Shown: in pieces, positions 3,540-26,014 of the stretch
Position numbering within the stretch: position 1 is the first letter of the stretch
Layout of the letters: each line of letters starts with the position of its first letter
Source of the DNA: a virus
IMG/VR virus record: IMGVR_UViG_3300021959_000011
Coordinates: 62,001 to 126,000 of that record
DNA: 64,000 nt
Direction: 5' to 3' (one strand)
The notes under the pieces: model-generated
Database searches by the model: none
Seen by the model: the letters and a program-made list of their open reading frames with translations, nothing else
What the model was told of the DNA's origin: nothing
Made by a program: the position numbers and the translations under genes

Positions 3540-3683
3540 ATGAAAAAAATAATTAGTAGATTAACAAAAGAAAAAGAAGCAATTTGTATCATTGCTGGTA
3601 TTGCAGTATTACTAACACCAACTAGTTTAATTGGTTGGGGGTTAATTCTGTATGGCGCATACAATGTCTTTATGGATAGATGA
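3540..3683 (+). CDS. 47-aa small membrane protein
   Basis: Starts one base after the stop of the preceding gene. Basic N-terminus (MKKIISRLTKEKE) then one hydrophobic hairpin-like segment with GIAVLLTPTSLIGWGLILYG. No family recognised. Its stop overlaps the next start (ATGA), so it is part of the same operon. Confidence 0.55.
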   Translation: MKKIISRLTKEKEAICIIAGIAVLLTPTSLIGWGLILYGAYNVFMDR

Positions 3684-25644: not shown

Positions 25645-25979
25645 TTAGAGTTAAAGTACGACTACTTCTGTTGCCAAGTGAGCCGCCAACTCCGTTAGAA
25701 TCAAGCTGCGATAGCCATCTCTACAGGTGCAAAATTATCGTTTGCATTTATTATTGTTGACCGAATAACGTAGGTCATCACGGCAATCTACTCTCATCTC
25801 TACACACCTGTCGATCCTAGTTCGCCCCCATCATAAATGCACTAACTTCGACCGCCACTTACGGGCCATCTATGTTCTGCAAAACTTCCTGTTGCAGCAG
25901 GACATAGTGCATTTATGGTGGAGGCGTTGGGTACTGCCCCCAAGTCCAGTATGTATGTTGAATCGTATCAACGACTACA
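25645..25979 (-). ncRNA. ssrA: Permuted two-piece tmRNA (alphaproteobacterial type)
   Basis: Order on the minus strand is acceptor piece, spacer, coding piece. The acceptor piece ends CGCCTCC-A-CCA (CCA 25916-25918; stem 25920-25926). The coding piece starts GGGGGCG (25829-25823). The two form a 7-bp acceptor stem with a G-U wobble at the third pair, the alanine identity signal. GGATCGACAGG follows as the D-loop region. The tag frame at 25745-25701 reads ANDNFAPVEMAIAA then TGA. A TGACC/GGTCA hairpin precedes it. Outer ends (about 25979 and 25645) are estimates. It would rescue stalled ribosomes and tag proteins for proteolysis. A consensus promoter lies upstream. Confidence 0.93.
25830..25915 (-). 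other. tmRNA intervening spacer with 13-bp inverted repeat
   Basis: CATAAATGCACTA (25832-25844) pairs perfectly with TAGTGCATTTATG (25905-25917), bringing the acceptor and coding pieces together for processing. A CTGCAA/TTGCAG hairpin lies inside. This is the segment removed to give two-piece tmRNA. Confidence 0.85.
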
Positions 25980-25985
25980 AATATA

Positions 25986-26014
25986 TTTATACACTATACT
26001 CTGTAAAATGTCAA
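25986..26014 (-). promoter_or_regulatory. tmRNA promoter TTGACA-17-TATAAA
   Basis: -35 at 26009-26014, -10 at 25986-25991. The -10 overlaps an exact TATAAATA late box (25984-25991), so the tmRNA could be made both early and late. Confidence 0.82.

Follow-up and report, generated by a model that had tools for sequence, protein, structure and literature searches.

The window, a 64,000-nucleotide stretch of a marine phage genome, carries on its minus strand (about positions 25978–25655) a complete circularly permuted, two-piece-type tmRNA gene. The tmRNA molecule releases ribosomes that have stalled and marks their products for degradation. ARAGORN called a permuted tmRNA with the tag ANDNFAPVEMAIAA, and full-length matches to two Rfam models were obtained. 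RF01849, the alphaproteobacterial model, scored 137.4 bits for a cut-off of 50, over model positions 1–355 of 355 (E = 2e-37), and RF04321 scored 121.8 bits for a cut-off of 47, over positions 1–213 of 213 (E = 3e-23). These E values place the match far beyond chance. A preliminary description of this DNA had proposed a permuted two-piece-type tmRNA in a phage and had named an Infernal search as the check; with both models above cut-off in that search, the proposal is borne out. Judged from its sequence, the gene looks like a working phage ssrA of the permuted alphaproteobacterial type. It is not the first of this type, since two-piece tmRNAs of marine phages have already been published (Melnitz and others), and it confirms that ribosome rescue is a function that marine phages often carry themselves: a loose pattern matched at least 120 viral contig stretches. 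We estimate at about 80% the probability that it works as an ssrA with its own promoter and a spacer helix, processed by the host and active in ribosome rescue and tagging, the likeliest benefit being extra rescue capacity.

All the parts of the gene are read on the minus strand. A sigma-70-type promoter, TTGACA-N17-TATAAA (26014–25986), has 11 of 12 consensus matches and a 17-nt spacing. The acceptor piece (25978–25916), whose 5' end is predicted from the start of the RF04321 match at 25978, comprises the 5' part of the connector, the T arm, the acceptor 3' strand, A73 and an encoded CCA. The T arm, TTGGG-GGCAGTA-CCCAA (25943–25927), has five of five stem pairs and an alpha-type T loop; it is followed by the acceptor 3' strand CGCCTCC (25926–25920, read from the sequence), A73 (25919) and the CCA (25918–25916). 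An intervening spacer of 86 nt, whose removal is expected, then extends from 25915 to 25830, and G1 stands at 25829, which gives the permuted order. The coding piece (25829–25655, with a mature 3' end predicted from the end of the RF01849 match at 25655) contains the acceptor 5' strand, the D-arm region (GAACTAGGATCGAC), the tag ORF and the 3' pseudoknot region. Its acceptor 5' strand GGGGGCG (25829–25823) pairs with CGCCTCC at 7 of 7 positions, G3-U70 included, and the tag ORF, ANDNFAPVEMAIAA plus stop (GCA...TGA, 25745–25701), was found both by ARAGORN and by translation. The set of identity elements is thereby complete: acceptor pairs, G3-U70, CCA, T arm, D region, resume codon GCA, tag and stop. 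The acceptor end, stem, D region, tag, spacer repeat and promoter had all been described beforehand in permuted order, and each was recovered. In a modelled co-fold of the predicted acceptor and coding pieces, the acceptor strands pair with each other, as do the connector strands.

Several of these elements recur in other viruses. A G-U at pair 3 was present in all 179 distinct viral permuted tmRNA genes extracted, and the same −35/−10 pattern lies upstream of the tmRNA in nine other viral loci and in phage Melnitz. The T loop had been singled out earlier as unlike a standard TTCGANN. This is correct, but the loop is not odd for permuted alpha-type tmRNAs, for which the RF01849 consensus is GGCgGUA: among 179 distinct permuted tmRNAs, nearly all viral, it is exactly GGCAGTA in 123 and GGCGGTA in 26. 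Degeneration of the gene as the reason for this loop was therefore ruled out, and, as the usual loop of the permuted family, GGCAGTA needs no special explanation. Strong sigma-70-type promoters are also found elsewhere in the window. Across positions 1–64000, the motif TTGACA-N16-18-TATAAT is matched at 11 or 12 of its 12 bases by 22 minus-strand sites, versus one on the plus strand; almost all have a spacing of 17 nt.

The most informative part of the earlier observation is the inverted repeat in the spacer. It had been given as 13 bp, and it is present: 11 bp are formed within the spacer, and the last two residues of the CCA end, C75 and A76, add the other two. The 5' arm (25917–25905) consists of C75-A76 and TAAATGCACTA, and pairs with the 3' arm TAGTGCATTTATG (25844–25832). 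An 11-bp run at the same register arose in 11 of 200,000 mononucleotide shuffles. Read from the sequence, the precursor would pass from the 7-bp acceptor stem to A73-U(−1), a C74/A(−2) mismatch, C75-G(−3), A76-U(−4) and 11 further pairs; this long helix of acceptor stem and spacer is also formed in the predicted minimum-energy fold.

Covariation supports a continuation of the acceptor stem through the CCA and into the repeat in the precursor, as judged from 132 distinct spacer ends of viral permuted tmRNAs with spacers of at least 30 nt. Over the 11 positions, 89% of the pairs were standard in the helix register, versus 37–57% in slid registers. Two to four Watson-Crick types occurred at each position, and 11 of 11 positions exceeded all 500 column shuffles, a comparison that sequence relatedness inflates, as it does not the slid-register control. 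Among 41 representatives below 70% identity, standard pairs still made up 81%. Most of the viral permuted tmRNAs collected thus have the helix at an unchanged register, with numerous compensatory changes between them. TGAT stands directly before G1 in the window gene and in 104 of the 132 distinct spacer ends. The helix is absent from genes with very short spacers (<22 nt) and is therefore not required in every gene. In the RF01849 and RF04321 models this region is unpaired. With an Rfam consensus that is A/U-rich beside CCA and G1, the helix could be a phage trait or one shared by bacterial genes. A literature search on the spacer helix and on maturation of permuted pre-tmRNA found nothing specific. 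The helix is a useful addition, a testable structural hypothesis for a maturation step that is little covered in the literature found.

The tags of these genes are variable in their centres and constant at their ends. An open tag frame was present in 173 of about 174 permuted genes not cut by a contig end; 172 of the 173 frames ended in AA in a permissive scan and one in LVA. ARAGORN gave 79 distinct viral tags of 7–22 aa among the loci compared, 78 of them ending in AA and 61 in LAA. The tag of the window gene ends in AIAA, a proteolysis-type end shared by seven of the 79, and the identical tag, together with the same tRNA spacing, is found in another, independent fragment from this virus population. 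Relatives with 84–91% identical genes differ in the tag centre (VEMAI, VETAL, SEFAL, SGYAL). The retention of tag frames and AA ends points to selection for a working tag, and supports the use of these genes as real tmRNAs. At the extremes of length, a tag of 22 aa, ANTKALGFADLTVGMSELRLAA, was seen in two loci and one of 9 aa, ANENFALAA, in four.

These elements suggest the following course of events. The gene would be transcribed from its own sigma-70 promoter, of which the sequence is present and the use is presumed, and the acceptor stem of the precursor would run on into the spacer helix, as covariation indicates. From what holds for the tmRNA family, host RNase P and 3'-processing enzymes would cut out the spacer, and the resulting acceptor and coding pieces would stay joined by base pairing. 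G3-U70 would direct charging of the RNA with alanine, and host SmpB and EF-Tu would bring it to ribosomes stalled on broken mRNA; it would enter these, Ala-ANDNFAPVEMAIAA would be added and the ribosomes released. The likeliest benefit to the phage would be more rescue capacity while phage and host mRNAs are cut during infection. Searches for SmpB found none in the 140.9-kb record, which may be incomplete, and none in ten further viral records, of which eight have a permuted tmRNA; the tmRNA would thus depend on host factors.

Other uses of the gene can be envisaged. It could reprogram tagging, by replacing the host tag with one of different fate, for instance one degraded more slowly by host proteases, and so protect phage proteins or overload host proteolysis. 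The diversity of viral tags, their divergent centres among close relatives and the minority AIAA end of the window tag are what this would lead one to expect, whereas the conserved C-terminal AA, mostly LAA, argues for ordinary proteolysis, and we regard reprogramming as unlikely. A difference between the phage tag and that of the host, raised in the preliminary description, is possible, and the wide spread of viral tags makes phage retagging of proteins in the host a directly testable question. A host gene could also have been captured by chance and be kept, transcribed or not, without use. Capture of ssrA by phages is possible, and gene exchange with a prophage is discussed by the authors of the Melnitz study (PMC9004378). 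However, tag frames, acceptor stems, T arms, promoter and spacer helix are all kept across diverged viral genes, with compensatory changes, which is not expected of a decaying passenger and makes this account very improbable.

Least probable of all, with hardly any weight in our judgment, is that the main effect of the RNA is to titrate host SmpB or to block host tmRNA. Such an activity has a precedent in the tagless tmRNA of mycobacteriophage DS6A, reported to be a tmRNA inhibitor (PMC4131195, PMC11915505), and one related viral contig does have a tagless permuted tRNA-like domain beside its complete tmRNA. The tagless gene was seen only once among 179, though, and the window gene keeps a tag, a stop and the 3' region of the coding piece, all needless for a sponge; with its tag frame intact, it is excluded from the DS6A type. 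The related contig itself (L222; IMGVR_UViG_3300024264_000029, 64.7 kb) has the second tRNA-like domain on the minus strand near locus position 3620, about 3 kb from its complete permuted tmRNA, with a perfect acceptor stem, G3-U70, T arm and spacer helix, and with no tag frame. A second assembly (L305) starts inside the spacer with the same sequence and confirms the 3' half only. The domain resembles the DS6A tagless tmRNA but is permuted; alternatively, it is a degenerate copy.

We also considered whether marine T4-like phages have evolved a permuted tmRNA lineage of their own, marked by a phage-specific D-arm signature and by a dedicated helix in the precursor, in which the CCA end would stay hidden inside a duplex of about 20 bp before processing. 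This proposal is tentative and on balance rather doubtful; if true, maturation could follow a non-host route (RNase III, for example) timed to infection. A 23-mer of the D arm, GGGGGCGAACTAGGATCGACAGG, was found in 95 viral contig stretches. The form of the 23-mer with W at one position had a single match in 84,980 species genomes. This distribution suggests a phage lineage of permuted tmRNA, short of proof, the viral and species collections differing in the environments sampled. The single match was in PBDU01000009.1, titled Euryarchaeota archaeon isolate SP339, which encodes an endolysin as well as a DNA helicase loader of T4 type (phrog_269) and therefore looks like a misplaced phage contig. 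This contig is binned as archaeal, and its permuted tmRNA has the phage-type D arm; some of the "archaeal" tmRNAs of PMC11915505 could likewise be misbinned phage contigs.

Comparison with known systems places the window gene, as an ssrA expected to act in rescue and tagging, among those of marine phages. The nearest isolate phages with related genes are Melnitz and HTVC008M, both of which have permuted tmRNAs. Methylophilales phage Melnitz (MZ577095-98) is a marine phage whose two-piece SsrA is annotated. The study describing it tallied 53 two-piece tmRNAs in phage genomes, of which 50 were marine or aquatic (PMC9004378). The permuted alpha-type tmRNA of Melnitz is 79% identical to that of the window over the aligned 35%, the spacer helix abuts the acceptor stem, the promoter is of the same type, and the cyclase and CsgG genes next to it have homologues in the window. 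In contrast, its tag is ANDNYVPVDYALAA, its spacer is 142 nt long versus 86 nt, and its tmRNA is followed by a glutamine riboswitch. Control by such a riboswitch was ruled out for the window gene, with no RF01739 match in the record. Pelagibacter phage HTVC008M also has a permuted tmRNA, with a spacer helix identified by eye (CCAAAACCACTTC/GAAGTGGTTTTGAT), but differs in its tag (ANFNEYALAA, 10 aa), T loop (TGCAATA) and acceptor (GGGGGTG). That tmRNA (KC465899.1, 145161–145370) is unannotated in its record and overlaps the end of the hypothetical protein AGE60528.1.

Roseobacter phage DSS3P8 and Rhodobacter phage RcXuper likewise have permuted genes, with a coding piece 71–74% identical over one third of the gene. 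The DSS3P8 tag also ends in EMAIAA, but the full tags differ (ANINNAPMEMAIAA and ANENFAPMEMRLAA), as do the phage genomes. A two-piece tmRNA of Caulobacter type was reportedly described in alphaproteobacteria by Keiler and colleagues in 2000. The window gene agrees with this type (RF01849) in its full-length model match, T loop class and order of parts, and differs in being phage-borne and in its D arm (GAACTAGG versus the consensus GAAAUAGG). A similar tmRNA gene was present in none of the plasmids searched.

The virus record to which the window belongs has 140,926 bases and genes for tail-fibre and baseplate-type proteins, an endolysin, thymidylate synthase, a CHASE2/adenylate-guanylate cyclase and CsgG. 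Its cyclase shares 51% identity with the Melnitz protein and 34% with the HTVC008M one, which makes the virus a distant relative of both. A search for the T4 portal (PF07230) gave zero matches in the record and zero in the controls too, and is therefore uninformative. The host is presumably alphaproteobacterial, as inferred from the tmRNA type and from a tRNA-Pro that shares 94% identity with one in a Rhizobium phage.

Downstream of the tmRNA, on the minus strand, lies a gene for a 117-aa protein (25629–25276) with a signal-peptide-like start and a C-terminal phenylalanine, followed by a terminator-like hairpin (25234–25213). The protein is also found 3' of the tmRNA in six close relatives (50–64% identity) and matched no Pfam or PHROG family. 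The gene is possibly co-transcribed with the tmRNA, and its product may be an outer-membrane beta-barrel. Two further genes lie on the minus strand of the window. One (28473–28066) encodes a cytochrome c (PF00034, E = 3e-12) that has a CxxCH motif and a start resembling a signal peptide, and for which tblastn against the phages collection gave no relative. The other (28934–28656) encodes a small DUF1127 (PF06568) protein.
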